A stretch of 64,000 nt of DNA from Planctomyces sp. SH-PL14. GTDB taxonomy: Bacteria > Planctomycetota > Planctomycetia > Planctomycetales > Planctomycetaceae. The notes beneath the pieces are model-generated. The model worked only from the letters and a program-made list of their open reading frames with translations, was not told the DNA's origin and did not search any database. Shown in pieces: positions 2,065-22,791 of this stretch (the first letter of the stretch is position 1; every line of letters starts with the position of its first letter). Location of the stretch: positions 5,970,001-6,034,000 of the forward strand of contig NZ_CP011270.1 in NCBI RefSeq assembly GCF_001610835.1, written 5' to 3'. Both the position numbers and the translations under genes were made by a program.

Positions 2065-2099
2065 TTGAAGTATAGACGCTGTGTCTGTAATGTGTCGAG
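2065..2099. promoter_or_regulatory. Divergent promoter region with BlaI-type operator (site 2)
   Basis: TATAGACGCTGTGTCTGTA (2071-2089) is an imperfect version of site 1. On the plus strand it is framed by TTGAAG (2065-2070) and TGTAAT (2086-2091), pointing to blaI. On the minus strand TCGACA (2098-2093), an 18-bp gap and TATACT (2074-2069) point to family A copy 1. One bound repressor dimer would cover both promoters. Autoregulation from such a site is the norm for BlaI/MecI/CopY repressors; its use here is inferred. Confidence 0.65.
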
Positions 2100-2181
2100 G
2101 AGATTCGTCCCGGATTCGCGTTGCGTTCGTCGTCGGTCCCCCTCGCCCTGCTTCGTCACTGTTCCGGAGCTCAGAACATCC

Positions 2182-2586
2182 ATGTCACCTCGAGCGGTCA
2201 GCCTGCCCGACGCGGAACTGTCAGTCCTGCGATGCCTGTGGGAGCACATCTCCGCCTCCGCGCGACAATTGACGTTGTGGCTTTATCCGGAAGGGACCCC
2301 TGCGCAGGTGGCGACCGTCCAGAAGCTGCTGAGCCGCCTGGAGGAGAAGGATTGCGTCCGCCGGAACCGCGACACCTGGCCGCACCTGTTCGAAGCGGTC
2401 GTCGGCCGCGAGGACGTGATCTCCGACCAGTTGCAACAGACCGCCGAGCGGCTGTGCGACGGCGACCTGCACCCGCTCCTGACGCACCTCGTCAAGGCGG
2501 GTAAACTCAGTGCCGAAGACCGCCAGTCGCTGCGGGACCTCCTCGACGACCTGGACGAGCCGCGGAATAAGAAGGGCAAGAAGTAA
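2182..2586 (+). CDS. blaI: BlaI/MecI/CopY-family transcriptional repressor
   Basis: A 134-residue winged-helix repressor. The N-terminal half has the family pattern: LPDAELSVLRCLWEH, then ATVQKLLSRLEEKDCVRRNR for the recognition helix and wing. The C-terminal half (about 80-125) is the helical dimerisation part, and the last residues are Lys-rich. A longer in-frame start exists at 2065 but would overlap the operator; the ATG at 2182, with GGAG upstream, gives the family's usual N-terminus. It is followed 130 bp later by the M56/WD40 protease gene, the classical BlaI-BlaR1 order. Such repressors are inactivated when the partner protease cuts them. No beta-lactamase gene is nearby, so the signal is probably not a beta-lactam. 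It is the presumed regulator of sites 1-3. Confidence 0.9.
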   Translation: MSPRAVSLPDAELSVLRCLWEHISASARQLTLWLYPEGTPAQVATVQKLLSRLEEKDCVRRNRDTWPHLFEAVVGREDVISDQLQQTAERLCDGDLHPLLTHLVKAGKLSAEDRQSLRDLLDDLDEPRNKKGKK

Positions 2587-2716: not shown

Positions 2717-4990
2717 ATGATTCGAATCGTCGAATGGGCCATCGCGAATTCGCTGACCGTGGCGGTCCTGGCCCCGATCGTCTTCCTGATCGGGCACGTC
2801 TGCCGCCAGCCGGCGGTTCGCCATGGGCTGTGGGTCCTGCTTCTCATCAAGCTCGTCACGCCGCCGCTGTTCCCGGTCGAGATCTCTCTTCCGGACCTCC
2901 TCCCAAGCCGCGCCGCCGCGACCTCCGCTTCCGCTGTTCCGAGCCCGCAGGTCGTCGGGAGCGTGAGCGAAACGGTCGCTCTGCCGTCGCCGTCGGCCTC
3001 GCTCCCGATCGCTGCGGTGGCCGTCGAGACCGCGACCGTTCCGCAGTCCGTCCTCTCCGCCTTTGAACCGGTCGGTGCGGGATCCACGGCGGTCATCGCT
3101 GAGGCGGCCCCGATCGCGCCGGTGCTGTCGGCGAATCCGACCGTCCCTGTTTCCCCCTCCGTCGTCGGGCCGTTGGTCGCCCGGACGCTCGTCTTCGTCT
3201 GGCTCATCGGGGCGGCGATCCTGCTGTCGGTCCAGCTGTACCGTCTTGCGTCATTCGCGCGGCGGCTGCGGCGCTCGAGCTATCCTTCGGCCGGCCTCGA
3301 TGACGACATGCAGGAAGTCCTCGACGGACTCGGCTGCACGCGGGCGCCCCGGGTCCTGATGGTCAACGGCGTCGTCTCCCCCATGCTGTGGGGCGTCGGC
3401 CGCTGGGCCACGATCCTCTTCCCGGCCGAGCTCTATCAGCAGCTCCGCCGCGACGCCCGCCAGACGCTGCTCCTGCACGAACTGGCCCACTACCACCGCG
3501 GCGACAGCTGGGTCCGGCTCCTCGAATTCGTCAACGTGATCCTCTTCTGGTGGCATCCCGTGGCGTGGTGGTCGCTGCGGGAAATCGAGTCCGCCGAAGA
3601 AGAGTGCTGCGACCAGTGGGTCATGGGCCGCACGCCGTCGTCCGCCCGGTGCTACGCCGGGGCGCTCCTCGACACGATCGACTTCCTCTGCGAGCGGAAC
3701 CCGCTCGCCCCGCCGGTCTCGAGCGGCCTCGGCAATCCCCGCGAGCTGCGGGGACGGCTGGTCAAGATCATGCAGGGGAGCGGCCGCCAGACCATCAACG
3801 CCGCCGGCCGCGTGGGGCTGGCCCTCGTGCTCCTGGGACTGCCGTTCCAGCCGCAGGCGCTCGCGTCGCTCGGCGGCTCGTTCCGCGAAACCCTGCTCAG
3901 CGGCCTCGAACGCATCGAGAGCCTCGCCCCGACCGACCCGGAAACCGAAATCCCGACGGTTGTGGCGACACGGTCCGCCGTGACCGAGCCGGCCATCCCC
4001 GCGCCGCAGGTCCGCCCGACGGCGCCGCGGTCCCGCTCCTCCGTCCGCGAATGGGCGACCGCCGTTTCGGACGGCGGCCGGTACGAGATCCGCGCCCGGA
4101 CCGGGAAGCGGGTCGACCTGATCGACAACGAGACCGGGCGGGCGACGCCGCTGACCGACTGGAACGTGGCGGCCACCGCCTTCGTTCCGGGGCGCGGCGA
4201 GTTCGTGACCGGCGGCTTCGACCGGCAGCTCCGCCTGTGGGACGCGGCCTCGGGAACGATCCGCGCCACGTTCGCCGAGTTCGCCGAGGCGGTCGTCTCC
4301 GTCGCGGTCTCCCGCGACGGCGGACTGGTCGCCGCCGGCGCCCGCAGCGGCGACGTCGCGGTCTACCGGACCGGCGATCTCGTCGAGCCGCTGACGTGGA
4401 AACTCGACGCCCCGATCAACAGCGTCCGCTTCTCCCCGGCGGGTGACCGGCTCCTCGTGAGCGTCGGCGGCTGGCGCTCGGAGCGGAGCGGGGCGCTCGT
4501 CGTGATCGATGTCCGGGGCGGCACGATCCTCCGGACCATTCCTCTCGCCCGCCCGATCGGCGTGGCGGAGTTCACCGCGGATGCGAACACCGTCGTCACC
4601 GGCGGCTGGGACGGACGGATCGACTTCGTCCGGCTCCCGCAGGGGAACGTGATCGCCAGCGTGATGCGCTCCAAGGACGCCGTCTCGGCCGGGGCCTTCT
4701 CACAGGATGTCGAGTCGTTCCCCGGCGTCGACCTCGAAACGGCGCGGGCGGAAGTCGCCCGGCAGGAACTCGAACGGCTGGGGCTGGCGATTGGAACGGG
4801 ATCGCCGCTGCCGTTCCCGAGTCCCGCCGACGCGGTGGCCCGGACTCCCCAGACCCTCTTCCCGTCTCTGTTCGCCGTGGCTCCGAAGAGCGCGGCTTTG
4901 AGGACCATGGCTCCGACGAGTCCGGTTCCGACCACGACGTCGTCGGCGCCCGGCGCTCCGGCCTTGCTCTCGGCTCCCGCTCCCCGCTGA
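2717..4990 (+). CDS. BlaR1-like M56 metalloprotease fused to WD40 repeats
   Basis: A 757-residue membrane sensor-protease. Hydrophobic segments lie at about 10-27, 39-50 and 155-175. The zinc motif HELAH is at 254-258 and a downstream acidic segment SAEEECCDQWV follows a membrane helix (FVNVILFWWHPVAWW), as in M56 peptidases. A further hydrophobic segment lies near 360-380. From about 455 to 660 there are WD40-type blades (FVTGGFDRQLRLWDAASG; VVTGGWDGRIDF), then an Ala/Pro/Ser-rich tail. BlaR1 of staphylococci ends in a penicillin-binding sensor; here that domain is absent and a propeller takes its place. The expected role is signal-dependent cleavage of the neighbouring BlaI. Which side of the membrane the propeller faces cannot be told from sequence alone. 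Confidence 0.85.
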   Translation: MIRIVEWAIANSLTVAVLAPIVFLIGHVCRQPAVRHGLWVLLLIKLVTPPLFPVEISLPDLLPSRAAATSASAVPSPQVVGSVSETVALPSPSASLPIAAVAVETATVPQSVLSAFEPVGAGSTAVIAEAAPIAPVLSANPTVPVSPSVVGPLVARTLVFVWLIGAAILLSVQLYRLASFARRLRRSSYPSAGLDDDMQEVLDGLGCTRAPRVLMVNGVVSPMLWGVGRWATILFPAELYQQLRRDARQTLLLHELAHYHRGDSWVRLLEFVNVILFWWHPVAWWSLREIESAEEECCDQWVMGRTPSSARCYAGALLDTIDFLCERNPLAPPVSSGLGNPRELRGRLVKIMQGSGRQTINAAGRVGLALVLLGLPFQPQALASLGGSFRETLLSGLERIESLAPTDPETEIPTVVATRSAVTEPAIPAPQVRPTAPRSRSSVREWATAVSDGGRYEIRARTGKRVDLIDNETGRATPLTDWNVAATAFVPGRGEFVTGGFDRQLRLWDAASGTIRATFAEFAEAVVSVAVSRDGGLVAAGARSGDVAVYRTGDLVEPLTWKLDAPINSVRFSPAGDRLLVSVGGWRSERSGALVVIDVRGGTILRTIPLARPIGVAEFTADANTVVTGGWDGRIDFVRLPQGNVIASVMRSKDAVSAGAFSQDVESFPGVDLETARAEVARQELERLGLAIGTGSPLPFPSPADAVARTPQTLFPSLFAVAPKSAALRTMAPTSPVPTTTSSAPGAPALLSAPAPR

Positions 4991-5087: not shown

Positions 5088-5954
5088 GTGGTCCGCGCCT
5101 GGCTTGCCATCGTGATTCTCGCCGCCGTGAACGGCGTCGTCCGGGGCGACGAGGGGTCGCTCTCGGACCGGCAGCGGATCGTGACCGACCTGGCGAAGCG
5201 GACCGTCGAGCTCACGCAGTTCCGCGTCGCAAAGGGAAACGCGCCGCTCGTCCATCACGGGCCGCTCCTGCGGTGGTCGAACCCGACCGCCGGCGAGGTT
5301 CACGGCGAGATCCATCTCTGGACGGAAGACGGCCGCCCGGCGTGCATCGGCTCCGTCTACCGCTGGTTCAGTCCGCAGTGGGGGGCAACGCTCGAAGTCT
5401 CGTCGCTCGTCGACCGGCAGGTCGTTGCGCGGCAGCGGGACCGCGAGTTCTGGAAGCCCCCGGCGGCCGCGATCCGCTGGGAGCCGCTCGCCGGGAGCGA
5501 GGCCCCGGCCGACACCCCCGCCGGGCGGCTGATCCAGATGCGGCGGATCCTCCGCGACTTCGCGGCGACACTCCGCGACACCCGCCGGACCGAAGAACCG
5601 GTCGAGCGCCGCCTGCGGCTCATGCCCCAGCCTCTCTTCCGCTATCCCGCTCCGTCGGCGACGGCGTCCTATCTCGACGGTGCGATGTTCTCCTTTGTCG
5701 AGGGGACCGACCCCGAGGTGCTGATCCTCCTGGAGTGCGACGCGGCCAAGACCGGGGCCGCTCCGGCGAAAGAGACTGAGCCGGCGTGGCGGTGGGGGGC
5801 GGTGCGGATGAACATGGACAGCCAGACGGTCTCGCTCTCCGGCCGGGCCGCCTGGTCCGCGGACGGGCTGGAGCTCTCGCGGGTCCTCTCGGCCCCGGCC
5901 GAGCCCTACGCCTACTTCATGCTGGAAGAGCAAACGGGAGAGGTGAAGCGATGA
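5088..5954 (+). CDS. Family A secreted protein, copy 2
   Basis: 288 residues, GTG start with GGGAGG 5 bp upstream. The N-terminal 20 residues (MVRAWLAIVILAAVNGVVRG) are a signal peptide. Family landmarks in order: RWSNPTAG...GEIHLW..DGRPACIG (about 62-85), RLIQMRRILRDF (near 147), RLRLMPQPLFRYP, and LDGAMFSFVEGTDPEVLILLE (near 200). No cysteine pair, metal motif or known catalytic signature stands out. It lies 97 bp after the M56/WD40 gene and its stop overlaps the next start (ATGA), so translation of the two family A copies is coupled. Function not recognised; the operon position suggests a secreted output of the BlaI circuit. Confidence 0.85.
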   Translation: MVRAWLAIVILAAVNGVVRGDEGSLSDRQRIVTDLAKRTVELTQFRVAKGNAPLVHHGPLLRWSNPTAGEVHGEIHLWTEDGRPACIGSVYRWFSPQWGATLEVSSLVDRQVVARQRDREFWKPPAAAIRWEPLAGSEAPADTPAGRLIQMRRILRDFAATLRDTRRTEEPVERRLRLMPQPLFRYPAPSATASYLDGAMFSFVEGTDPEVLILLECDAAKTGAAPAKETEPAWRWGAVRMNMDSQTVSLSGRAAWSADGLELSRVLSAPAEPYAYFMLEEQTGEVKR

Positions 5955-6871
5955 CTGCGCTCCGGAGCGTCCTCTCCTCGGTCGTCTTGATTGGGACCAT
6001 CCTGTCCGTGGCCGTGCTGCCGGTGGCGGCGCCGCTCCTGGCTGCCGAGCCCGAAGCGGCGCCGTCGACCACGGTCGAGGAGCGCCGGCGACAGCGGCTC
6101 CGCGAAGAGCTGTCGGCCTCGGTCGACTGGAACAGGTTCCTCCTGACGGAGGCTCCCGACGCGAAGGTCGAGCCGGTCCGGGTCCACCGCTGGACGAACG
6201 ACGAGCGGGACCCGCAGGGGGAGGGGATCGCGGTCCTGTGGATCGGCCGCGGGCGGCCCGTGGTGGCGGCCTCGATCTATCCCTGGAACGGGCGGCTCAT
6301 CCACGAGATGGAATCGCTCTCCCGGGAAACGTTCTCCTGCCAGCGGGAGGACGCGCTGATCTGGCAGCCGCGGACCGGCATCGAGTACCACCGCGTCCCC
6401 GACGCCGAGGCTCCCGCGGAGTCTCCGGTCGCCCGGCTCCGCCAGATGAAAGGGATCGCCGACCGGTTCGCGATCACGATGCTCGGCTGGAACGACGACG
6501 ACTCCGACCGCGAGCAGCTCCGGCGGCTGCCGAAAGAGCTCTTCCGCTACCGTCCCGAAGCGGGCGGGCCCCTGGATGGCGCCGTCTTCGCCTTCGTGAA
6601 GGGGACCGATCCGGAGACGCTCCTCGTCGTGGAGGCGGTTGCCGGCGAGAACGGCGGACCGTCCCAGTGGCACTACGCGCTCGCCCGGCAGACGTCCGGG
6701 GGGCTCGAGGCGCGGCTGGGAGAGCAGGTGGTCTGGACCGCGCCGAAGCATGTCTATCGGGGCGACCCGACGAAGACCTTCTTTACGGCCGAGGGGCCGC
6801 TGGCGCCGAGTGCCATCGAGACAGGCCCCGTGGAATCCGGCCCCTTGCGCTCTCCGAACGGGCTGAAGTGA
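5951..6871 (+). CDS. Family A secreted protein, copy 3
   Basis: 306 residues, ATG overlapping the previous stop by 4 bp. A signal peptide of about 32 residues ends near APLLAAEP. Landmarks: HRWTN...AVLWIGRGRPVVAASIY, IHEMESLSRE, ARLRQMKGIADRF, LRRLPKELFRYRP, LDGAVFAFVKGTDPETLLVVEA, then WHYALARQT and EQVVWTAP. The His-Glu pair after the first motif recurs in several copies. The last 25 residues are divergent, as in all members. Function unknown. Confidence 0.85.
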   Translation: MTALRSVLSSVVLIGTILSVAVLPVAAPLLAAEPEAAPSTTVEERRRQRLREELSASVDWNRFLLTEAPDAKVEPVRVHRWTNDERDPQGEGIAVLWIGRGRPVVAASIYPWNGRLIHEMESLSRETFSCQREDALIWQPRTGIEYHRVPDAEAPAESPVARLRQMKGIADRFAITMLGWNDDDSDREQLRRLPKELFRYRPEAGGPLDGAVFAFVKGTDPETLLVVEAVAGENGGPSQWHYALARQTSGGLEARLGEQVVWTAPKHVYRGDPTKTFFTAEGPLAPSAIETGPVESGPLRSPNGLK

Positions 6872-6908: not shown

Positions 6909-8012
6909 GTGAAGATCGACGAACAGCGGACCAATCGTCCCCGTGGAATCCTGCGGCCGCTTTCCGCGGCGCTGGGGCTGGGAGCGGCCCTCGCGTGCGG
7001 CGGACCTGCGCGAGGGGAGGAGACGCTCGTTCCGGCCGGGACGTCGCTGACGGCGGCCGACACCGCGGGCGGCGATCGCCCAGGGACCCGGCGGGCGCTC
7101 ATCGTCTGCGGGCATCCCGGCGACGCGGAGCATTTTCAAACTTTCTCCGAGACCGCGGCCCGGCTGCGGGAGGGGCTCGTCAAGACGGCGGGAGTCGCGT
7201 CCGGGGAAGTGAAGCTCTATTTCGGCGTCGATCCCGAGCGGGACGATAAGGCCCTGATCCCCGAGGGGACGATCGGCCCGGCGACGCGGGAGGCCCTGAC
7301 GGCGGCGGTCGAGACGCTGCGGGCCGAGCTCCGGCCGGAGGACACGCTGTGGGTCGTCTTCGCGGGGCACGCGCACTTCGACGGCCGGCGGTCGTGGATC
7401 AACCTGCCGGGGCCGGACTTTCACCAGGACGAAATCGGCAAACTCTTCCGGGGCCTCGCGTGCCGGGAGCAGGTGTTCGTGATCGCCACGGCGGCAAGCG
7501 GCTTCTACGTGAAGCCGCTGTCAGCCCCCGGGCGGGTTGTGATCTCGGCGACCGAGGCGGACCTCGAGGTGAACGAGACCCTCTTCGCCGCGGCCCTCGC
7601 GGAGGAACTGATCCGCCTGGGCGAACCCGCGGTCCCGAAAGCGGCCAGCGCCGCGCCGCCGGCCGCCGAAGCCGCGGCGACTCCCGCCACGCCGCCAGCG
7701 CCCGCAGCCGAGGCCGGGCAGGAGACCGTGGCGCCCCCTCCGTCGCCCGATGCCGACGGCGATGGCGTCCTGACGCTCTTTGACCTCTACATCGCGACGA
7801 CCCGCGGCGTTGCGCAAAAGTACATCGCCGAGAGCCTGCTCATCACGGAGCACGCGCTGATCGACGATAACGGAGACGGCCGGGCCACGGAAGTCCAGCG
7901 GGACTATCTCACCGAGGCCGAAGGGGGCCGCAAGCGGGCGTCGTTCGTGCCGAGCCATCCTGCGGGCCAGGATGGCTCGGCCGCGGCCCAGATCCGCCTC
8001 GCCGTGCCGTAA
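6909..8012 (+). CDS. Secreted caspase-fold (C13/C14-like) protein with two EF-hands, catalytic Cys missing
   Basis: 367 residues, GTG start, signal peptide about 1-36. Residues 62-235 read as a caspase/legumain-like fold: RRALIVCG at the first strand, TLWVVFAGHAHFDG with the expected catalytic-type His at 154, then VFVIATAASGFYVKPL where active members have a D-A-C-x-S-G-like motif. Here the cysteine position is Ala195 and the aspartate position Ala193, so protease activity is unlikely. After an Ala/Pro linker (about 240-280) come two calcium-loop motifs, DADGDGVLTLFD (281-292) and DDNGDGRATEVQ (319-330). It is the last gene of the blaI operon. A pseudoprotease acting as a calcium-dependent binding protein is inference; fold assignment is by motif only. 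Confidence 0.65.
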   Translation: MKIDEQRTNRPRGILRPLSAALGLGAALACGGPARGEETLVPAGTSLTAADTAGGDRPGTRRALIVCGHPGDAEHFQTFSETAARLREGLVKTAGVASGEVKLYFGVDPERDDKALIPEGTIGPATREALTAAVETLRAELRPEDTLWVVFAGHAHFDGRRSWINLPGPDFHQDEIGKLFRGLACREQVFVIATAASGFYVKPLSAPGRVVISATEADLEVNETLFAAALAEELIRLGEPAVPKAASAAPPAAEAAATPATPPAPAAEAGQETVAPPPSPDADGDGVLTLFDLYIATTRGVAQKYIAESLLITEHALIDDNGDGRATEVQRDYLTEAEGGRKRASFVPSHPAGQDGSAAAQIRLAVP

Positions 8013-8169: not shown

Positions 8170-9048
8170 TCAGTCGACGTGGAACGTGACGTAGGTCTTG
8201 TCGCGGCTGGCGGGGTCTCCGCGCTGCGTCGACATCTGCGTCGGGTCGCGCTCGGCCCGCCAGACTTCTTCTTTGGCATACCGGGCGACGATGCCGTCGT
8301 AGTGAAAGCGGGCGAAGGCGTACTCCCACTGCCAGCCCCCGAGATTCCCCTCGGCCGGCCGGGCTTCGAGGAGGAGCAGCGCTTCGGGATCGGTGCCGAG
8401 GGCGAAGGAGAAGATCGCCCCGTCGAGGAGCGTCTCGGAGACGCGGTGGCCGTCGTCCTCCCCGCGCGGCGTCGCGTCCTCTCGCGGGGGCTTCGCTTCA
8501 TAGCGGTAGAGCGGCTGCGGGAGGAGCCGCAGCTCGGTCGCCTCGTCCTTCTCACCGTGGAGCGAGGCGGAGAACTGGCGGGCCATGTCCTTGAGCTGGA
8601 TCGTCCGCAGCCGGGCGCTCTTGGCGGGCCGCGGGGCCTCGGGAACCGGGCGGAACTTGACTCCCGCCTCGGGGCTCCGCCAGGCGATCTGGCCTGCGAA
8701 CCGGGCCGTCAGCGGGACGGTCGCCAGGGACTGGAACTCGTGCTTGGTCCGGACTGCTTGCAGCTTGTAGGTGAAGACGCTCCCGATCACCTGCGGCCGG
8801 CCCTCCTGGAGCCAGAGGAAGACCGCGCCGTCCTCGCTCGTGCGGGCGGGGTTGCTCCAGTGGAGGAGGGGCTTTTCGAGCATCGCGAGCCGCGGGGCGT
8901 TCTTGCCGTCGAGCCGGATGTCATAGGCCGCGACTCCCTGGCGGAAGCCTTCAATGACGTCCGCCGCTTCGCCTGCGGGAGGGGACGCTGGAGGGGCAGG
9001 GGCCTGGGCGATGCACAGGGCGGCGGCGAGCAGGAGAGCGGCGTTCAT
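8170..9048 (-). CDS. Family A secreted protein, copy 4
   Basis: 292 residues with a signal peptide of about 16 residues. The clearest example of the family: LHWSNPARTSEDGAVFLW, GRPQVIGSVF, HEFQSLATVPL, VKFRPVPEAPRPAKSARL, IQLKDMARQF, ELRLLPQPLYRYE, LLDGAIFSFALGTDPEALLL and WQWEYAFAR. Compared with the others there is a charged insertion (about residues 190-205) before LLDGAIF. It is the last gene of the long leftward run, 187 bp after copy 5, with a CACAGAT repeat pair between them. Function unknown. Confidence 0.85.
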   Translation of the reverse strand: MNAALLLAAALCIAQAPAPPASPPAGEAADVIEGFRQGVAAYDIRLDGKNAPRLAMLEKPLLHWSNPARTSEDGAVFLWLQEGRPQVIGSVFTYKLQAVRTKHEFQSLATVPLTARFAGQIAWRSPEAGVKFRPVPEAPRPAKSARLRTIQLKDMARQFSASLHGEKDEATELRLLPQPLYRYEAKPPREDATPRGEDDGHRVSETLLDGAIFSFALGTDPEALLLLEARPAEGNLGGWQWEYAFARFHYDGIVARYAKEEVWRAERDPTQMSTQRGDPASRDKTYVTFHVD

Positions 9049-9235: not shown

Positions 9236-10084
9236 TCAGGGGGCGGCCGGCGCCGGAGCGGCGTCGGCGCGGGAGAGGAAGAGCCAGTAGGGGTCTTCCG
9301 GGCGGCCGACGACGTTGGGGGTCCGGGGGGCGGACCAGACTTCTTCGTCGCCGAGGGACAGGTGGAGTTCGGCGCTCCCCATGCGGGCGGCCGCGAGTTT
9401 CCATGTGGCGCTGGCCGGTTCGGGGCCGGTCGCTTCGATGAGGACGAGGATCTCGGGGTTCGTGCCGTGGGCGAAGACGAAGACGGTGCCGTCGAGGATG
9501 CCGGCGGCGGGGTCGGCGTAGCGGTGGACGGGCTGGATGAGGAGGCGGAGTTCGTAGCGGGAGTTGTCGGGGTCCCAGAATTCGTGGGCTTTAAGGCGGC
9601 CGGCGATTTCTTTCATCTGTCGGAGGCGGACGCGTTCGGAGTCGCCGATGGGAGGGCCCGTGATGGGGGCCGGTTTGAATGCGGCCGCTTTGGGGGTCCA
9701 GCGGGGGCTCAGGGGGGCTCTCATCTCGACGAGGTCGGTGGAGGTGAGGGAGACGGCGTGGATCCAGAAGCCGCGGTTCTCGTCGCTCTGGTAGAGCTCG
9801 AGGAAACACTTTGGGCGGCCGGCGCGGCCCCAGGCCCAGAGGGTGCCGTTGTCGTTCTGTCGGACGGGGTCGCCGTAGGTGATGAGGGGTTTTTCGATGC
9901 GGTCGAGGGGTTTGCCGGTGGCGAGGGTCGCTTCGCACTGGGTGATGTGCTGGGTAGCGACGCGGATTTTGGCTTCCGCTTCGGAGGTGGGGGAGGTGGA
10001 AGTGGGGTCATCGGCCAGGGCAGAGAAGTGCGGAATGGAGAGGGCGAGGCCGATGGCGGCGATGTGGAGGAGTGAATTCGTCAT
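9236..10084 (-). CDS. Family A secreted protein, copy 5
   Basis: 282 residues; signal peptide about 1-24 ending near FSALADDP. Landmarks: ITYGDPVRQNDNGTLWAWG, AGRPKCFLELY, VRLRQMKEIAGRL, ELRLLIQPVHRYADP, ILDGTVFVFAHGTNPEILVL and DEEVWSAPRTP. The usual WSNP is replaced by YGDP, and the His-Glu pair is His-Ala. Upstream lies a 290-bp interspersed element, which separates it from the 900-residue VWA gene. Function unknown. Confidence 0.8.
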   Translation of the reverse strand: MTNSLLHIAAIGLALSIPHFSALADDPTSTSPTSEAEAKIRVATQHITQCEATLATGKPLDRIEKPLITYGDPVRQNDNGTLWAWGRAGRPKCFLELYQSDENRGFWIHAVSLTSTDLVEMRAPLSPRWTPKAAAFKPAPITGPPIGDSERVRLRQMKEIAGRLKAHEFWDPDNSRYELRLLIQPVHRYADPAAGILDGTVFVFAHGTNPEILVLIEATGPEPASATWKLAAARMGSAELHLSLGDEEVWSAPRTPNVVGRPEDPYWLFLSRADAAPAPAAP

Positions 10085-10499: not shown

Positions 10500-13202
10500 T
10501 CACGCCAGCCCGACCCGCCGACGCCACAACCACTCCGCCGTCAACAAACCGACCAGCCAGCACCACAACCACCACGAACTCCAGATCGGACTCCGGCTCA
10601 CCACCGGAGCACCCACCTTGATCGGGATCTCCCCCAGCACCTTCGCCAGATCGTCTGCCCCCGACAGGACTTTTCCTCCCGACAGCGTCGCGATCCGCTT
10701 TAAGAGGTCATGGTTCGGGAACGGATTCTGAAGCTCAAACGGATCATGCAGAATCTGGACGTCGAGCGACGTACTGTCGACCTGCGTCTGGTCCTCATAC
10801 GCGGTCAGCTCCAGCCGCAGCGACTGACTCGCCGCTCCCGACAGCAGCGTGTCGGCGATCGCGAGCTTCAGGCCATAAGCCGGCTTGTCCCCCTCGGCCA
10901 CCAGCGGGATCTCCAGCTCCTCACCCCAGGCGATATAGGGCCCCTCCTCGCCGCTCGTGCGCGGAATCCCCTCCGGCCACTTCAGCGGCGAGTAGTCGCC
11001 GGGGATCTCCTTGAGCGAGCTGTTGGGCTCGATCATCGCCACGATCCGGTAGTCCTTCGTCTGCCGGGCCAGCTCGTTGAACGCGGACGACGTGATCTCG
11101 ACCGCGTCCCCGGGGTGATAAAACCGCTTGTCCGCCCCCGCGATCAGCCGCCGTCGGCCGATCGATGAGTTCTCCGTGAGCCAGTAAACGAGGTTCCGCC
11201 AGAACCGGGCATAGTTCCCCTGGTCTCCGCCGCCGACTCCCCCCTCCTGCTTCCAGTTCGTGTTGAACTCGGCTGCCCACGGCGGCGTGATCGCGTTGCG
11301 GAGAGCGATCGTCCGCCCCCGCCCGTAACGACCGACGACCAGCGCCGCCGTCACTCCGCGAGCCGCGGCCCCGCCGGCAGGATTCGCCTGCCGCTCGGTC
11401 GACTCCGGCCCCGTTTCGACGAGGCGGCGGAAGAAGTCCTGAACGCTCGCCGCGTCCCCCTGCGGGACGGCGCCGGCCGGGGGCGTCGACGACCCGGTGA
11501 CGGTGCCATCGGCCAGCGTCAGCGTGAGGTTCGGCTTCACCGCCGCGAACTGGTTCGCTCCCAGGAGCGGCGGGATCGCCGCCAGGGCCTCCCGCGTGCG
11601 TCGCTCTTCGGTGTAGAGCGACCAGATCGGATGGGCCTCGGTCCCCGGAAGCGGCTTCCAGGCGATCTGCTCCGAGGAGTTCCAGTCGGGACCCGGCAGC
11701 ATCTCGACCGGCAGCATCTCGGCGATCTTGGTCTCGTGCCAGCCCCCCGACGAAAAGCTCCGCGGGCCCCCCGCCATCAACAGCCCGCCGCCCCGCTGGC
11801 CGATCCACTCCTCGATCCAGTCGACCTGCTGCTGCGTCAGGAGCCGCTCGGGGATGTCGCTGAGGAAGATGGCGTCGAAGGCCGCGAGCTCGGCCTTGGT
11901 TTCGGGGAAGCCGCGGCTGCGGTCGAAGCCGGTCTCGCCGATCCGCACGAGGTCCCCCCCGCCGCCGGCGCTCGCCACCACGACGCACTCGATGTCGTCG
12001 TCCCCCGTAAGGGCCTTGGCGACGTCCGAGTGCGCCCCGCGGATCACCTGCCGCGTCCCGACCACCGTGGCCGAGAGCGGCTGAGACGACCCTTCGAGGT
12101 ACAGGATCCGGATCTTGGTCCGGTCGATCGCGATCTCGCTCGTGAGGCTGTTGTTGGCGTCGGAGATCTCCTCGTCGGCGGTCGGGATCCCGACCTGGAC
12201 CTTGTGCGACTCGATCGTGCTGCGAAAGGAGACGGTCGCCGCCTGGAAGCCGCTGCGGAGCGTCACCGGGACGCTCGCCAGCTTGCGGGCCGGCTTGCCG
12301 CCGCCCGCCGGGACCGTCAGCTCGACCTCGGTCCGGTAGCCGTCGAAGCCGAAGCTGCGGATGAAGACCTGGACCTCGACCTCCGAGAACTTGCGGACCC
12401 GCGGCGGGACGACGGCGGCGACGATCGAGATGTCCCCCCGCTTCCCGAGCCCCCCCGTCGGCATGACGTGGACCGGGACCTGCAGCCGCCCGAACTGCGA
12501 GACGATCTGGTCGACGCCTCCTTCCTCGTCGCGGGTCCGGCCGTCGGAGAAGACGACGATCCCCGCCGGCGGCTTGTGGCCGAAGCGGCTGGAGATCTGC
12601 CGCAGCGCCGTGATGAGCTGCGTGTCGGAATCGGTCGGGGCGAGCGGCGCGATGGTCTTCGCGGCGGGGGCGGCCGGCCCGACGTTCCGCGTTACGTCGG
12701 CGGCGTAGGCGGGAGCGGTCAGCGAGAGGGCGCCCGACGCCCGTTCGGCCTGCTGAGTGCCGGGGCCTGCGCCGGCGCCAATCTGCCCGGCTCCAATCTG
12801 GTCCAGACCGCCGCTCGCGAGGAGCCGCTGGCCGAAGCGGAAGAGCTTCACATCAACGGGGCTGCCGCTCGCCTGGGCGGCGGCGTCCCGCATCGCTTCG
12901 AGGGCGTCTTCCCAGCGGGTCGTCGGCTCGCCGAGGGTCATGCTCTGCGAACTGTCGACGAGGTAGAAGAGCTCCGGCCGCTCGGCGATCCCCGGCGTCT
13001 GGGTGACCCGCACCGGGTTCAGGAGAATCAGGACCAGCGTGGCGACGAGCAGCCCGCGGAGGACGAAGAACCCGGTCCGCCGCGAGATCCCCGCCGGCGG
13101 GCCGAGCGCGCGGCGGAACAGGGCCCACAGCAGGACCGCGGCGAGCGCGATCCCCGCCAGGAGCGGGAGGGTGACGGGCGATTCGAACGCGAGACGCGAC
13201 AC
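10500..13202 (-). CDS. Membrane protein with VWA and amidotransferase-like domains, 900 aa
   Basis: GTG start with GGAG upstream. Two N-terminal membrane helices (about 10-28 and 45-63) are followed by a von Willebrand A domain from about 78, with the MIDAS motif DSSQS and later GIVVFSDGRTRDE. A beta-rich part follows (about 265-370). Then a class I glutamine amidotransferase-like segment is recognisable by FDAIFLSDIPERLL and GGGLLMAGGPRSFSSGGW (about 460-520). A last membrane helix lies near the end (SWWLWCWLVGLLTAEWLW). This architecture recurs in planctomycete proteins next to MoxR/BatA genes. The role is unknown; a scaffold or chaperone-type complex at the membrane, driven by MoxR, is the usual proposal for such sets. 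Confidence 0.8.
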   Translation of the reverse strand: MSRLAFESPVTLPLLAGIALAAVLLWALFRRALGPPAGISRRTGFFVLRGLLVATLVLILLNPVRVTQTPGIAERPELFYLVDSSQSMTLGEPTTRWEDALEAMRDAAAQASGSPVDVKLFRFGQRLLASGGLDQIGAGQIGAGAGPGTQQAERASGALSLTAPAYAADVTRNVGPAAPAAKTIAPLAPTDSDTQLITALRQISSRFGHKPPAGIVVFSDGRTRDEEGGVDQIVSQFGRLQVPVHVMPTGGLGKRGDISIVAAVVPPRVRKFSEVEVQVFIRSFGFDGYRTEVELTVPAGGGKPARKLASVPVTLRSGFQAATVSFRSTIESHKVQVGIPTADEEISDANNSLTSEIAIDRTKIRILYLEGSSQPLSATVVGTRQVIRGAHSDVAKALTGDDDIECVVVASAGGGGDLVRIGETGFDRSRGFPETKAELAAFDAIFLSDIPERLLTQQQVDWIEEWIGQRGGGLLMAGGPRSFSSGGWHETKIAEMLPVEMLPGPDWNSSEQIAWKPLPGTEAHPIWSLYTEERRTREALAAIPPLLGANQFAAVKPNLTLTLADGTVTGSSTPPAGAVPQGDAASVQDFFRRLVETGPESTERQANPAGGAAARGVTAALVVGRYGRGRTIALRNAITPPWAAEFNTNWKQEGGVGGGDQGNYARFWRNLVYWLTENSSIGRRRLIAGADKRFYHPGDAVEITSSAFNELARQTKDYRIVAMIEPNSSLKEIPGDYSPLKWPEGIPRTSGEEGPYIAWGEELEIPLVAEGDKPAYGLKLAIADTLLSGAASQSLRLELTAYEDQTQVDSTSLDVQILHDPFELQNPFPNHDLLKRIATLSGGKVLSGADDLAKVLGEIPIKVGAPVVSRSPIWSSWWLWCWLVGLLTAEWLWRRRVGLA

Positions 13203-13272
13203 GTCGGAACTCCAGTGGCCCGTCTCCGCCGGTCGAGCGGAGCGGGCCGGTCGGCTTTGTCAGTCGGCTTCT

Positions 13273-14241
13273 TCAGGATTTGGGGGCGGGCGCGGGGGCG
13301 TCGGCCGGCAGGGGCCGGGGGAGGGCCCCGGTGCTTTCCGCCGGCTCCGCTGCGGGCTGGGCGGCGCGGAGGTCTTTCAGCTCCGCGGCGGTCTTATGTC
13401 CGGCGTAGAACGTGGTGTAGGGACGGGTGATGGCCCCCGCTTCCTCCGTGTGGGTGTCGACCCGCCACACCTCGGCGTCTCCCAGGCGGATCCAGGCGGG
13501 ACGGTTCGTGATCCGGGCGGGGGCGTACTGCCACTGCCAGTTCCCGTCAGCCCCCTTGCGAGCCTCAACGAGGACGAGAACCTCGGCATCGGTCCCGGTC
13601 GTGAGGACGTAGGTGAAGACCGCCCCGTCGAGCCATTCCGATGACGGGTTCTCGGCAGGCCGCTGGTAGCGGAACATCGGCTGGGGGAGGAGCCGCAGCT
13701 CCCACTCCGCTCCGTCGAACTGCGTCCGAACGTCGAACGCGCGGGCCAGGGACCGCATCTGGGTCAGCCGGGCCTTCTCGGTCCCGGCGGGGAGCGGCGC
13801 ATCGGGGATCGGGCGGTACTCGAGGCCCGTGGTCCGCGGGATCCAGTCCTGGCCGTCGGGCAGCTTCTGGGGAGCGAGCGGCGCCGTCGAGAGGGCGTGG
13901 AACTCGTGGAAGAACATCCGGTCGCCGCCGGGCTGCGGTCCCGACAGGATGCAGCCGACGACCTCCGGCCGTCCGCCGCGCTGCCAGATAAAGAGGTCCC
14001 CCGACCAGTCGTTGGGGCTCGCCCAGTGGAGGACCGGCTTGGCCTCCCGCTCGAGCTTCACCTTGTGCTCCGCGTCGGCGAAGAACTGGTACGTGTCGGC
14101 CCCCTGGCGATAGAGGGTCTGGAGGAACCGCGACTGCGCCTCGGCATCGTCCTCGGCCCGCGCGGCCGGGCTGGCGGCGACCATCGCGCCGACCGCCATC
14201 CAGAGGGCGGCGGCCAGTCGTGTTCTTCGTTGTCCGGTCAT
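13273..14241 (-). CDS. Family A secreted protein, copy 6
   Basis: 322 residues from ATG at 14241; the signal peptide ends near AARAEDD (about 33). Landmarks: LHWASPNDWSGDLFIWQ, GGRPEVVGCIL, FFHEFHALSTAPL, ARLTQMRSLARAF, ELRLLPQPMFRYQRP, WLDGAVFTYVLTTGTDAEV and WQWQYAPARI. The tail is extended by about 25 Ala/Pro/Glu-rich residues. It sits between two large membrane proteins of the VWA module, 70 bp upstream of the 900-residue gene, which ties family A to that module. Function unknown. Confidence 0.85.
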   Translation of the reverse strand: MTGQRRTRLAAALWMAVGAMVAASPAARAEDDAEAQSRFLQTLYRQGADTYQFFADAEHKVKLEREAKPVLHWASPNDWSGDLFIWQRGGRPEVVGCILSGPQPGGDRMFFHEFHALSTAPLAPQKLPDGQDWIPRTTGLEYRPIPDAPLPAGTEKARLTQMRSLARAFDVRTQFDGAEWELRLLPQPMFRYQRPAENPSSEWLDGAVFTYVLTTGTDAEVLVLVEARKGADGNWQWQYAPARITNRPAWIRLGDAEVWRVDTHTEEAGAITRPYTTFYAGHKTAAELKDLRAAQPAAEPAESTGALPRPLPADAPAPAPKS

Positions 14242-14260
14242 GGTTCCCCTCGCGTTGTGG

Positions 14261-14362
14261 TTAAACACCAAGGCACCAAGGAGGCACCAAGAGCACAAAG
14301 GTCAGATCCTGCGGAGTCACGCCTTTGTGGCCTTGGTGAACTCTTTGTGTCTTGGTGTTTAA
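14261..14362. repeat. ACCAAG-type hairpin repeat
   Basis: TTAAACACCAAGGCACCAAG at the left and CTTTGTGTCTTGGTGTTTAA at the right are complementary over most of their length, leaving about 50 bp between. The same unit recurs at 21583-21669, 33912-34014 and 52857-52960. It lies between two genes transcribed in the same direction. Confidence 0.85.
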
Positions 14363-14368
14363 CTCCCC

Positions 14369-18199: not shown

Positions 18200-18244
18200 G
18201 GCGGTGAAGGGCCAGGGACCAGGGGGACGAGGACTACGACGGGG

Positions 18245-18386
18245 AAGTATCAAGTGGCAAGTATCAAGTATCAGTTGGAGGGCGAGTCTGGCTGGGGGCG
18301 ACGCTTTCTCCGGCTTGCGGCTCGGCAGGAGCCTCGCCCTCCCAATCTGCCTCTAACTGACACTTGCTACTTGTTACCTGATACTT
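18245..18386. repeat. Inverted repeat with AAGTATCAAGT arms
   Basis: AAGTATCAAGTGGCAAGTAT at the left is answered by ACTTGCTACTTGTTACCTGA at the right. The centre holds GGAGGGCGAGTC...GGAGCCTCGCCCTCC, a unit related to those at 41208 and 45803. It fills the 189-bp gap between the BatA/VWA gene and the DUF4175-like gene. Confidence 0.7.
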
Positions 18387-18388
18387 CC

Positions 18389-20515
18389 CTAACTCACCGT
18401 TCGATTCGCCACGAACGACTCCAGTAACATCAGCCCCACCAGGACCACGGCGGCCCAGTGCCACTGTTCGTCCTGGCGGAGGTCGGTGGCGGCGAGGGCG
18501 GCGGCGGCGGCGTTGGCCGGGCGGACGAGGGGCTCCCCCGGCTTCTCCGCCAGGGTGAGCTGGAACCGTTCCGCGAACTCTTCATTCGTGCACCGGTCGG
18601 TCTCCGACTCCCGCGGGCTCGGATTGATGACCTGGTTGTGATTGGGGCGGCGGGCGACTTCCGGCCGGGCGTCGACCGAGGCGGCGGCGTCGATCAGGGT
18701 CGGGCGGACCGGGCCCCCGTCGTTGAGGCCGAGCGGCTCGCCGACGATCTGGTGGACGAGCGGCAGGTAGAGTCGCGAGCTGGGCCACTCCCCCCAGCCC
18801 CGGTCGCAGGTCGAGGTGAACCAGACCGCCGTCCCCTGGCCGAACCGCTGCTCCAGGATCGCCGGGTCCCCGCCGCGGAACTGGGCCAGGACACGGACAT
18901 CGGAGGTCGCCGCGGGAGCCGGGGCGTCCTTGCTTTCGGAGGAGCCGCTCGGCTTCGAGGCCGCGGCCGGGACGACGATCTTCGTGTAGCCGCGGAAGGC
19001 GAGCCGGCGGAGGTCGCCGTGCTGCGGGTCCGCGAAGGGGCGGATCAGGGGATGCTTGTCCTCCCACTGGTCGATCCGGAACGGCAGGTCGCTGGCGTGG
19101 ACCGGGCCGGCGATCTGTCCCGGCACGAGCCCCGCCGCCCGCAGCGTCTCGTACCCCCGCGACTGGATCTTGTCCCCGCCGAAGACCACGAGGCCCCCGC
19201 CGGTCCGGACGAACTCCGCCAGGCGGCTCGCGTCGTCCGCCGCGATCTCGGCGACGTTCGCCAGGACGACGACCCGCGCGTCCGTCAGCGAGGGGAGCTC
19301 GTCCCCCGGCTGGAGCGGGACCACGACCGGGTCGAAGGGGGATTCGGAATACTCTTCGCCGTCGGGCGCGAGGCGGAGCGACGTGGCGAGGAAGTAGGTC
19401 TCGCTGAGAAACGGAGAGGTCGAGGGGGCGCCGTCGGCAATGACGACGCGGCTCGGCCGGACGGCGAGGACCGCGACCTGCCGGGAGTTGTCGAAGCGGA
19501 GATCGTCGTCGGTCTCGATCGAGACGGTCCCGGTCCAGAGGCCCGCGTCGAGGGCCGGGATCTCGAACTTGGCGCTGCCAGTCGAGCCCGGCTCCAGCTT
19601 GACCCGCTCCCGCAGGCTGAGCTTGCCGGCCGGGCTTTCGAGCTTCAGCAGCACCTGCTGCTCGGCGACCGGGAAGGGGGTGCTGTTGAGGACGGTCGAG
19701 AGGATCGTCGTCGGCTCGCCGGGGCGGACGACGCCGCGGATCGGGCGGGCCTCGGTCACGGCCAGGTTGCTGACGACCGCCCGGCCGAGGTCGTGGATGT
19801 GGACCTGGACCGTCTCTGGCAGCGGATCGACCTCGGCCCAGTCGAGCCCCGACCGCTGGAGGTCGGTGAAGAGGTGCAGCTCCTGCTCCGTCGCCGCGAC
19901 CCGCACCGCGAGGTCGCGGGCCCAGTTGATCGCCGCGCCGTAGTTGGTGGCGTGGTACAGGGGACCGGGCGCGGGGACGTCCGCCAGGAGCTTCGACGCG
20001 GTGTCGCGGTTGCCCCCCACGGTCGGCTTCCCGGCGGTCTCGTTCCGACCCGCCGCTTCCGTCCCCCCCTCGTCAGTCGAGACCCCGTCGAGCGGGCGGA
20101 GGGCGTCGTCGAAGAAGGCGACTTCAATGCGGGTCCGCTCCGCCTGCTGGGAGACGATGTGGCGGGCCTCGGCGATCGCCTGCTCGACGAGCCGCCCCTG
20201 GTCCCCCTTGAGGTCCATGCTGGCGGAGCGGTCGATCAGGATCATGACGAGCCGCCGGTCGCCGCCGGGGGCCGCCTCGACGAAGTAGGGCCGGGCGAAG
20301 AGGAACGCCAGCAGGAACACCGTGGCGATCCGCAGGGCGAGCAGCAGCCACCGCATGATCCGCTGCCGCTGCGCGTTCCGCTCCAGGACCTGCCGCAGGA
20401 ACCGCAGCGTTCCCAGGTTCACCCGCCGCGCCTGCGAGCGAAACATGAGGTGGACGATGACCGGAAGGGCCACCGCCGCCGTCGCGAGCAGGAATGCGGA
20501 CTGGACGAAGTGCAT
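18389..20515 (-). CDS. BatA-type N-terminal domain / VWA membrane protein, 708 aa
   Basis: The first 80 residues are the aerotolerance/BatA N-terminal region: a membrane helix (FLLATAAVALPVIVHLMF), RRVNLGTLRFLRQV, and a second helix (WLLLALRIATVFLLAFLFA). A VWA domain follows with the MIDAS motif DRSAS (about 95-100). Later come a beta-sandwich (about 270-340) and an amidotransferase-like part containing FVRTGGGLVVFGG. A C-terminal membrane helix ends the protein (AAVVLVGLMLLESFVA). It lies directly downstream of DUF58 and MoxR genes, the standard MoxR-DUF58-BatA order. These modules are thought to act as MoxR-driven assembly or chaperone complexes. Confidence 0.85.
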   Translation of the reverse strand: MHFVQSAFLLATAAVALPVIVHLMFRSQARRVNLGTLRFLRQVLERNAQRQRIMRWLLLALRIATVFLLAFLFARPYFVEAAPGGDRRLVMILIDRSASMDLKGDQGRLVEQAIAEARHIVSQQAERTRIEVAFFDDALRPLDGVSTDEGGTEAAGRNETAGKPTVGGNRDTASKLLADVPAPGPLYHATNYGAAINWARDLAVRVAATEQELHLFTDLQRSGLDWAEVDPLPETVQVHIHDLGRAVVSNLAVTEARPIRGVVRPGEPTTILSTVLNSTPFPVAEQQVLLKLESPAGKLSLRERVKLEPGSTGSAKFEIPALDAGLWTGTVSIETDDDLRFDNSRQVAVLAVRPSRVVIADGAPSTSPFLSETYFLATSLRLAPDGEEYSESPFDPVVVPLQPGDELPSLTDARVVVLANVAEIAADDASRLAEFVRTGGGLVVFGGDKIQSRGYETLRAAGLVPGQIAGPVHASDLPFRIDQWEDKHPLIRPFADPQHGDLRRLAFRGYTKIVVPAAASKPSGSSESKDAPAPAATSDVRVLAQFRGGDPAILEQRFGQGTAVWFTSTCDRGWGEWPSSRLYLPLVHQIVGEPLGLNDGGPVRPTLIDAAASVDARPEVARRPNHNQVINPSPRESETDRCTNEEFAERFQLTLAEKPGEPLVRPANAAAAALAATDLRQDEQWHWAAVVLVGLMLLESFVANRTVS

Positions 20516-20578
20516 TGGGGGGAGGACGTGGGTAGTGGGTGGTTGGTCGCGGGTCGCGAGTGGGTTACGGGACTCACG

Positions 20579-20637: not shown

Positions 20638-20672
20638 TTGTAGGGTTGTTCTCTCTCATCCTTTGTGACACC

Positions 20673-21566
20673 TCACAGCACTCTCGACCGCCGGACGAGG
20701 TAGTCGAGGAGGGCCTGGTCGAGGGGGTCGTCGGTCGTCAGTTCGACGCGGTCGATGGCGCGGTTGCGGCATTCGACTTCGATCCGCTGCCGCCACTCGG
20801 CGACCGCGTCCCGGTAGGCATCGCGGATTCCTTCGACTCTCGTGCTCAGTTCCGCGCCGGTCTCCAGGTCGTGGAACCGGATGTTGCCGTCGAGCGGCAG
20901 GTCCCGCTCCCACGGGTCCCACAGGTGGAACAGGACCACCTCGTGGTTGCGGAACCGGAGGTGTTCGAGCCCCTTCACGATGGCGTCGATGTCGTCGAAC
21001 AGGTCGCTGATGATCACCACCATCCCGCGGTGCCGGCAGAGCTCCGCCGACTGCTGGAGGGCCCGGGCCGCCTCGGACTGCGGACGGGCCTCGGTGGTGG
21101 CGATGAGGCGGAGGATCTCGTCGAGCTGGTGCGGCTTGGCCCGCGGCGCGAGGTGGCCCAGGACCCCGTCGGCGAAGAGCGTCACCCCGACCGCGTCCCG
21201 CTGCTTGAGGGCCAGATGCGCGAGGGCCGCGGCCAGCGACGCTCCGTAGTGGAGCTTCGTCCGGCCGGTGTTGGCGCACTCCATCGACCCGCTCACGTCG
21301 AGCAGGATGTAGAGGTTCATGTTCGTCTCCGCGTCGAACTCTTTGACGTAGAGCCGCCGCTGGCGAGAGAACAGCTTCCAGTTGATGTACCGCGGATCGT
21401 CCCCCGGGACGTACTCCCGGTGCGAGGCGAACTCGACGCTGAACCCCACGAAAGGACTGCGGTGCAGCCCGGTCAGAAAGCCTTCGACGATCGACCGCGC
21501 ACGGAGCTCCAGGCTCTCCATGCGGGAGAAGAAGGCGGGGTCGGTGAGGGAGCGGGGATCGATCAT
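20673..21566 (-). CDS. DUF58 domain (VWA-like) protein
   Basis: 297 residues from ATG at 21566 (MIDPRSLTDPAFF). Typical of the family: FVGFSVEFASHREYVPGDD, the DPRYINWKLFSR block, then LYILLDVSGSMEC with the DxSxS metal site. No membrane helix is visible, so it is probably cytoplasmic or peripheral. It lies 111 bp downstream of moxR, with an ACCAAG-type hairpin between. DUF58 proteins regularly pair with MoxR ATPases and are thought to be their partners or adaptors. Confidence 0.9.
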   Translation of the reverse strand: MIDPRSLTDPAFFSRMESLELRARSIVEGFLTGLHRSPFVGFSVEFASHREYVPGDDPRYINWKLFSRQRRLYVKEFDAETNMNLYILLDVSGSMECANTGRTKLHYGASLAAALAHLALKQRDAVGVTLFADGVLGHLAPRAKPHQLDEILRLIATTEARPQSEAARALQQSAELCRHRGMVVIISDLFDDIDAIVKGLEHLRFRNHEVVLFHLWDPWERDLPLDGNIRFHDLETGAELSTRVEGIRDAYRDAVAEWRQRIEVECRNRAIDRVELTTDDPLDQALLDYLVRRSRVL

Positions 21567-21582
21567 GGATCGGGAAATGCGT

Positions 21583-21669
21583 TCAACACCAAGACACAAA
21601 GCCGCACGAAGAGGAGCAGGCTCAGTATCGCTTCGGGACCTTTATGCCTCTTTGTGTCTTCGTGTTTCA
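21583..21669. repeat. ACCAAG-type hairpin repeat
   Basis: AACACCAAGACACAAAG at the left pairs with CTTTGTGTCTTCGTGTTT at the right, with about 50 bp between. It occupies almost the whole gap between moxR and the DUF58 gene. Confidence 0.8.
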
Positions 21670-21676
21670 GTCTTCT

Positions 21677-22687
21677 TTACCCTTCGGTCGGGACCGCGTT
21701 GAGGAGATTCCCCACCAGCACGTCGGCATCGACGCCGTCCGCGCGGGCGTGGAAGTTGAGGACGAGGCGGTGCCGGAGGACCGCCGGGGCGACCGCCTTG
21801 AGGTCCGCGAAGTCGACGTGGTACCGCCCCGCCAGGATCGCCCGGGCCTTCGCGCCGAGGACGAGGTACTGCGACGCCCGGGGGCTGGCGCCGTAGTGGA
21901 TGTACTTGTGGAGGCCCGCGTAGGCCTTCGGTCCCGATTGTCCCGGGGCGGCGGGGCGGGTGGCGGCGACGAGGCGGGCCGCGTACTCGATCACGCTGTC
22001 GGCGATCGGCACTCCGCGGACGATCGCCTGGAGCTGGAGCAGTTCGTCGGCCTTGAGGACCGATTCGGCACTCGCGGTGAGCGTGCTCGTCGTCCCCTTG
22101 ATGATCTGGACCTCTTCGCTCACCGTCGGGTACTTGACCCGCAGGTTGAACATGAACCGGTCGAGCTGCGCCTCGGGGAGCGGATAGGTCCCCTCCATCT
22201 CGATCGGGTTCTGCGTGGCGACGACGAAGAACGGCGGCTTCAGGGTGTAGGTCTGTCGGCCGACGGAGATCTCCCCCTCCTGCATCGCCTGGAGGAGCGC
22301 CGCCTGGGTCTTGGGCGGGGTCCGGTTGATTTCGTCGGCCAGCAAAAAGTTGGTGAAGACGGGGCCCGGCTGAAACTCGACGAAGTGCTTCCCCGCCTGG
22401 TCTTCCTTGAGGACGTCCGCCCCGGTGATGTCCGAGGGCATGAGGTCCGGCGTGAACTGGACCCGCCGGAACTCGAGCTCCAGGCAGCGGGCCAGCGTGC
22501 GGGCCATGAGAGTCTTCCCGAGCCCCGGCACCCCGTGCAGGAGGACGTGGCCGCGGCACAGGAGGCAGACGAGGAGCGACTCGATGATGTCGTCCTGGCC
22601 GACGATGACGCGGGCCATCTCGGTCTTCACCGCCCGCTGCGCTTCGCGGAGGCGGGCGATGACGGCGGTGTCGTTCGGTGTGTTCAT
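21677..22687 (-). CDS. moxR: MoxR-family AAA+ ATPase
   Basis: 336 residues from ATG at 22687 (an ATG 15 bp upstream is also in frame). Walker A is HGVPGLGKTLMA (about 54-65), Walker B FLLADEINR, and the sensor-1 region FFVVATQNPIE is present. The C-terminal lid carries PRASQYLVLGAKARA, typical of MoxR proteins. It is cytoplasmic and energises a module encoded by the next genes (DUF58, BatA/VWA, DUF4175-like, VWA/amidotransferase-like). The gene upstream encodes the 11-loop EF-hand protein. Assignment to family is firm; the client is unknown. Confidence 0.92.
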   Translation of the reverse strand: MNTPNDTAVIARLREAQRAVKTEMARVIVGQDDIIESLLVCLLCRGHVLLHGVPGLGKTLMARTLARCLELEFRRVQFTPDLMPSDITGADVLKEDQAGKHFVEFQPGPVFTNFLLADEINRTPPKTQAALLQAMQEGEISVGRQTYTLKPPFFVVATQNPIEMEGTYPLPEAQLDRFMFNLRVKYPTVSEEVQIIKGTTSTLTASAESVLKADELLQLQAIVRGVPIADSVIEYAARLVAATRPAAPGQSGPKAYAGLHKYIHYGASPRASQYLVLGAKARAILAGRYHVDFADLKAVAPAVLRHRLVLNFHARADGVDADVLVGNLLNAVPTEG

Positions 22688-22791
22688 GGATCCGGGTTTC
22701 AAGGATGTAAAAGTTCTGTTTCGGGCGAGCGGGGGACGTCAGTCCCCTGATGGCGGTGTCCTGAGAACGGCGCGGAGCTGCGCGCCAGGCG

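Follow-up and report, generated by a model that had tools for sequence, protein, structure and literature searches.

What role does a protein with the fold of a cysteine protease have when the residue in the nucleophile position is alanine? The question is raised by a gene of Planctomyces sp. SH-PL14 located at positions 6909..8012 on the plus strand of the window analysed here, a stretch of 64,000 nucleotides that corresponds to bases 5970001-6034000 of a single 8.44-Mb contig. A reading of the sequence alone had correctly placed this open reading frame (367 amino acids; GTG start; stop codon included in the coordinates) and had described its product as an exported, caspase-like pseudoprotease to which two calcium loops are attached. 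We arrive at a related but more specific view, to which we assign a probability of about 0.55, namely, that the protein is an exported, calcium-stabilised, noncatalytic partner with a legumain fold that belongs to an envelope system of the MoxR/vWA or BlaR1 type.

Predicted fold and protein architecture

When the protein was scanned against Pfam, NCBIfam and PADLOC, no caspase, EF-hand or defence family was recovered, and no Pfam family was matched at an E value of ≤1, so that neither PF01650 nor PF00656 was among the matches. Two NCBIfam matches (E values of 0.0072 and 0.8) were set aside as composition matches that fall on the Pro/Ala-rich part of the protein. An AlphaFold2 model based on an alignment of 71 family members (alignment A3) had a pLDDT of 85.4 and a pTM of 0.80, and a Foldseek search with this model returned legumains and asparaginyl ligases first (best match, 6l4y; E value of 3.7e-8); the TM-scores of the first 50 matches, normalised by query length, were modest (0.33 to 0.44). 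With VIA-align, 208 residues of the model were aligned to prolegumain 4nol (Z score of 20.1; rmsd of 2.9), and the Z scores were 19.4 for metacaspase-4, 17.3 for metacaspase-9 and about 16 for caspase-7. The same fold was predicted for L100, a relative with Ser in the nucleophile position (pLDDT of 90.9; Z score of 19.5 to prolegumain 4nol). In sequence comparisons, the family profile matched metacaspase-4 among PDB sequences (E value of 3.6e-5), Pfam C13 matched 32 of the 71 family members at an E value of ≤1 (best, 3.4e-8), Pfam C14 matched 6 of the 71, and the Cys-bearing relative L147 exceeded the gathering score of Pfam C13. The caspase/legumain assignment made from the sequence is therefore upheld by structure prediction, Foldseek and VIA-align, and a legumain fold (C13-like, clan CD) can be predicted with confidence.

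Residues 1 to 36 (positions 6909..7016, plus strand) form a hydrophobic stretch with a pLDDT of about 48 that is probably a Sec signal peptide with a putative cleavage site near PARG-EET, and the protein is thus predicted to be exported via Sec. The query and 58 of the 71 A3 members have a hydrophobic N-terminal stretch; 6 of the 13 members without one have ≤10 residues before the core, given the start that was chosen. Gly-His occupies residues 153 and 154 within AGHAHFDGR (residues 152 to 160), and in the alignments His154 (positions 7368..7370, plus strand) takes the place of the catalytic His, while ATAASG (residues 193 to 198; positions 7485..7502, plus strand) takes the place of the nucleophile motif, with Ala195 where active relatives have Cys. 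The retained His and the ATAASG motif had been recognised from the sequence alone, at positions that agree with the translation. A Pro/Ala-rich linker with low pLDDT (residues 236 to 280; positions 7614..7748, plus strand), an insert of ~45 residues between the last core helix and the first calcium loop, is lacking in all 21 sequences aligned with the query in alignment A1.

Calcium loops and conserved residues

Residues were compared across 100 relatives, of which 25 came from a protein search of 40 related genomes and the organism's own genome and 75 came from a named collection, in which the loci are the best 80 of at least 545 candidates; the fragment L101 was left out of this count. The relatives span five phyla, Planctomycetota, Acidobacteriota, Gemmatimonadota, Verrucomicrobiota and Rhodothermota. 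Loop 1 (residues 281 to 292, DADGDGVLTLFD; positions 7749..7784, plus strand) is a canonical EF-hand loop that leads into helix 290-307 and has Asp at position 12, where Glu is found in 77 and Asp in 21 of the 100 relatives. Loop 2 (residues 319 to 330, DDNGDGRATEVQ; positions 7863..7898, plus strand) has D/N/D/G at positions 1/3/5/6 and Gln330 at position 12, and because it ends in Gln, without an acidic residue, it is not fully canonical. Among the same 100 relatives, 75 of them drawn from the best 80 of 545 candidates, position 12 of loop 2 is acidic (Asp or Glu) in 32, D281, D320 and D323 are present in all, and residue 319 is Asp in 95 and Glu in 5. The earlier description of two intact calcium loops thus holds for loop 1 and was slightly too strong for loop 2. 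EF-hand_5 matches 17 of the 71 family members, all weakly (best E value of 0.0049). Nor does "attached" describe the loops well, as in the AlphaFold2 model loop 1 immediately precedes helix 290-307 and loop 2 immediately follows the last core strand (317-319), an order of elements that makes both of them part of the C-terminal half of the caspase-like domain. DSSP bridge letters near residues 289 and 327 of the model give only a hint that the loops are paired. The loops probably bind calcium and would stabilise the fold in a calcium-dependent manner.

The ten most conserved of 235 well-filled columns are G68, D320 (ranked 2nd), G153 (3rd), H154 (4th), D170, E314, G356, D281 (8th), G168 and R209. 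Gly153 and His154 are present in all 100 aligned relatives, of which 75 are from the best 80 of 545 candidates; since Gly-His and LxTEH..DD were the search patterns behind these 75, the conservation of Gly-His and of the loops is partly a product of selection. Among loci found with a profile, the His is kept in 30 of 30, and Gly-His is lost in 2 of the 17 distant profile-found rows of a 103-row alignment (GQ in L151 and TH in L164).

That the loop aspartates are conserved as much as the cleft would suit an envelope protein whose role is structural and calcium-binding, with the legumain fold as a mere scaffold and a cleft that holds no ligand. However, the cleft residues G153, H154, D170, R209 and T215 are themselves within the 13 most conserved columns, and we consider a ligand-free scaffold unlikely.

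Loss of the nucleophile across the family

Residue 195 is Ser in 73 of the 100 relatives, Pro in 21, Ala in 2, Thr in 2, Gln in 1 and Glu in 1, and it is Cys in none of them. One early tally of this residue was made without L036, L074 and L086, which duplicate L008, L012 and L013, and without L051. In the 30 profile-found loci, which were taken from 68 match rows and several of which are genes also present in the relative-genome search, residue 195 is Ser in 22, Ala in 6 and Pro in 2. The conservation of this column ranks 68th of the 235. The dead site is shared by most of the relatives and is not private to the query. With Ala in the nucleophile position, the query is unable to act as a cysteine protease, and the prevailing absence of Cys from its relatives suggests that the fold is used for binding rather than cutting in these bacteria.

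A quick tree of 103 rows, 38 of whose 100 inner branches are starred, was calculated without L101 and without 15 rows that were partial, redundant or nearly identical to others, with the named loci again being the best 80 of 545. Nineteen further regions had been fetched from the 68 profile match rows, the remainder of which includes weak matches in frames of ~860 to 1500 amino acids; the tree takes 17 of these 19 distant loci and leaves out L160 (truncated) and L162 (very divergent). The query belongs to a starred clade with 35 rows, in which residue 195 is Pro in 21, Ser in 11, Ala in 2 (the query and L061) and Gln in 1 (L063). Cys is present in 0 of these 35 rows, in agreement with the missing nucleophile proposed from the sequence. 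Ala195 is not fixed, however, as the near orthologues mostly have Pro and 6 of the 103 rows have Cys. All six are distant: L147, L149, L152 and L153, from other lineages of the phylum, share the motif C-x-S-D, and the far outgroups L158 and L164 read PCHSGG and SCYSGG, respectively. The Cys rows form two separate groups on the tree, with four of the rows nested, and a single clade of all six was weakly rejected (AU test; P value of 0.029; 52 rows) for a group that was defined only once a first tree was available. The presence of these six Cys-bearing relatives, of which four are nested, means that some parts of the family may be enzymes. A search of 29 genomes of the Cys-bearing class revealed no Cys-bearing lineage beyond those already seen. 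Within the subclade of L147, whose members are 45 to 62% identical to L147, L147, L149, L152 and L153 have Cys, while L146 and L148 have Ser.

With Ser being the commonest residue at position 195 in this sample (75 of the 100 relatives being from the best 80 of 545 candidates), His154 being kept and S-x-S-G being widespread, it could be argued that the family consists of serine-type hydrolases, in which Ser195 replaced Cys as the nucleophile in most relatives and the query's branch became inactive late. Against this, position 195 has become P, A, T, G, Q or E on many different branches without loss of the rest of the protein or its operon, Ser is missing from 8 of the 30 profile-found loci, and the residue label changes on starred branches at least 8 times for Ser and at least 7 times for Pro. 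Such drift would not be expected of a nucleophile. We therefore prefer a noncatalytic family to one of serine proteases, and we hold the reading of Ser195 as a general nucleophile, which was set aside, to be rather unlikely.

The conservation of His154 (102 of the 103 rows) and of the oxyanion-side Ser197 (Ser in 96 of 103) speaks against a pure binding role, which does not demand either residue, and would be in keeping with a relocated nucleophile, for instance, Ser197 or another residue of the cleft, that acts on a peptide or other substrate. But Ser197 also stands beside Cys, as C-x-S, in L147, L149, L152, L153, L158 and L164, and since Cys-bearing relatives have it too, it is better explained as a structural element within the motif; Ser197 was therefore set aside as a shifted nucleophile, and relocation appears improbable.

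Gene neighbourhood

Upstream of the gene, the plus strand of the window encodes, in order, a BlaI-like repressor (Penicillinase_R; 2065..2586; PF03965; E value of 4.2e-21), an M56 (BlaR1-type) membrane peptidase with WD40 repeats (2717..4990; PF05569, E value of 3.9e-31; PF00400, E value of 3.6e-9) and two proteins of a family here referred to as p290 (5088..5954 and 5951..6871), the second of which lies directly upstream of the legumain-fold gene. In the M56 peptidase, as well as in those of L043 and L052, the WD40 repeats stand in place of the penicillin-binding sensor domain. Beyond the gene, the minus strand carries p290 copies, a vWA/GATase1-like protein of a MoxR cluster (10500..13202; PF07090, E value of 9.5e-13; PF13519, E value of 2e-5) that resembles the neighbour of other family members, a DUF4175 protein, a BatA-type vWA membrane protein (18389..20515; PF07584; E value of 5.5e-15), a DUF58 protein (20676..21641) and a MoxR AAA+ ATPase (21680..22738). 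The last two are stop-to-stop frames that were recognised with phmmer by their similarity to the DUF58 and MoxR proteins of L066 (E values of 9.9e-64 and 5.1e-110, respectively).

The p290 proteins (~290 amino acids), with 21 matches in the genome, have eight paralogues between positions 389 and 27991 of the window, interspersed among the BlaI/M56 and MoxR/DUF58/vWA genes. Apart from the two plus-strand copies, they are located on the minus strand at 389-2155, 8170-9048, 9236-10084, 13273-14298, 24551-26377 and 27005-27991, some of them as stop-to-stop frames. The four copies that were scanned, including the one at 5088..5954, had no Pfam or NCBIfam match, and the family is also found upstream of the gene in related loci.

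To describe how far these surroundings are shared, we counted neighbours separately within and outside the query's clade, in both cases among loci from the best 80 of 545 candidates. In the 29 loci of the query clade (L036-L065 without L051), BlaI and M56 lie on the same strand in 13, MoxR is present in 12, and p290 is present in 14, all within L036-L050. Neither BlaI/M56 nor MoxR was seen in L039, L040, L045 and L047; the first three of these have less than 2.5 kb of sequence upstream of the open frame of the gene. In L052, L053, L056 and L060, vWA, BlaI, M56 and the gene occur all together, thereby bridging both contexts. In the 49 loci outside the clade (L066-L115 without L101), the vWA/GATase1-like gene is present in 47, with the two exceptions, L079 and L102, beginning at a contig edge, and MoxR and DUF4159 are found in 26 and 24 loci, respectively, within the stretch covered, often together with DUF58. 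The vWA frame overlaps the gene by a few to tens of bases in several loci (e.g., L069, L074, L100 and L107). A second copy in the organism's own genome (locus L165; 36% identical) has the same vWA neighbour, with MoxR, DUF58 and DUF4159 ~9 kb before it. As for the Cys-bearing loci with known surroundings, L147, L149 and L152 have the vWA neighbour, as does the Ser-bearing L146, while none of the neighbour genes sought was found around L158. The vWA partnership is thus common to Cys and non-Cys members.

Distribution and other caspase-fold proteins of the genome

The family is matched in 24 of 40 related genomes and in 56 of the 392 genomes sampled across the phylum. Close orthologues (E value under 1e-40) are limited to 4 of the 40 relatives, and the query's own type is therefore patchy. 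The own genome gave no PF01650 match, in a scan for which the control matches 2 of 14 genomes, and weak matches of the query in it are L006 (E value of 0.139) and L007 (E value of 0.512). At bases 5182582-5185961, this genome also encodes two adjacent C14 (PF00656) proteins (L001 and L002; frames of 1221 and 819 amino acids) that score over the Pfam cut-off.

These two C14 proteins could be the targets if the query regulated active caspase-fold proteases of its own cell, either as a decoy or in a dominant-negative manner. However, they are encoded about 0.8 Mb away, the genome is without a C13 match, and the query is probably exported, whereas MoxR-vWA ternary systems are taken to be cytoplasmic. 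Kaur et al. (2020, PMC7159879) proposed such a function for caspase domains that are inactive and occupy the vWA effector position; for the query, it seems very doubtful.

Discussion

Our preferred reading remains a noncatalytic partner in an envelope system. According to this model, the family would be ancestrally coupled to the vWA/GATase1-like protein in MoxR-DUF58 clusters, and the query's branch would have moved into BlaI-BlaR1(M56)-p290 operons. The protein would most likely be a binding module at the cell envelope, whose former substrate cleft, shaped by calcium, would bind a peptide or a partner, with the vWA protein, the propeller of the M56 peptidase and p290 as candidate partners, and the bound state might then be passed on to the MoxR/vWA or BlaR1/BlaI machinery. 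A bolder version, which we put forward only tentatively and regard as doubtful, is that calcium-gated pseudo-legumains, exported and spread across phyla, are the extracytoplasmic receptor arm of MoxR/vWA machines that in planctomycetes has been rewired to a BlaR1-type propeller protease and BlaI, with Cys being regained in one lineage of a dead family.

Compared with legumain and Peptidase C13, the protein has in common the overall fold (with the Z score noted above), the Gly-His and the catalytic His after strand 3. It differs from them by lacking the catalytic Cys and a PF01650 match, by the loops in its C-terminal half and by its location in bacterial MoxR/vWA or BlaR1 operons. The type II metacaspases 4 and 9 are similar in fold but are active cysteine proteases, and they are not known to have EF-hand-like loops of the kind found here. 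Metacaspases are calcium dependent as a class (PMC9622860).

Inactive caspase homologues have already been described in bacteria. According to Klemencic et al. (2019, PMC6426788), pseudo-versions make up 8.6% of the bacterial caspase homologues, and pseudo-orthocaspases, of which 90% come from Alphaproteobacteria and Cyanobacteria, are p20 (C14-type) proteins that mostly carry Tyr-Ser; neither "Planctomycet" nor "C13" appears in that paper. Both these proteins and the query are bacterial caspase-fold proteins without a His-Cys dyad, but the query keeps the His, has Ala at position 195, is closest to C13 and has no PF00656 match. Similarly, Kaur et al. (2020, PMC7159879) found about 70% of the caspase domains that occupy the vWA effector position to be inactive, and such domains of MoxR-vWA systems were proposed to be peptide-binding or dominant-negative. 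MoxR and vWA genes are also found near the query (10500-22738, minus strand). In those ternary systems, the caspase domain is fused to the vWA component, whereas the query is a separate gene on the opposite strand, and its family consists of separate, probably exported proteins beside a BatA/GATase1-like vWA protein with DUF58 and DUF4159. The view that an exported pseudoprotease of this fold is unusual therefore needs to be narrowed: inactive bacterial versions are known from these two studies, and what appears to be new is the exported, C13-like version with calcium loops, no family of which was found in the literature searched, which covered few subscription papers.

In summary, MoxR-DUF58-vWA clusters are widespread and poorly understood, and a noncatalytic, probably exported calcium-loop protein that is coupled to them provides a concrete component. 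Since the nucleophile drifts freely while the fold, the His and the calcium loops are fixed, the family would be a clear example from nature of how a protease fold can be reused for binding. Cys-bearing relatives are naturally at hand for comparison with the dead members, and the L147-type proteins with Cys and the L146 and L148 proteins with Ser form a natural pair for asking what the Cys does.
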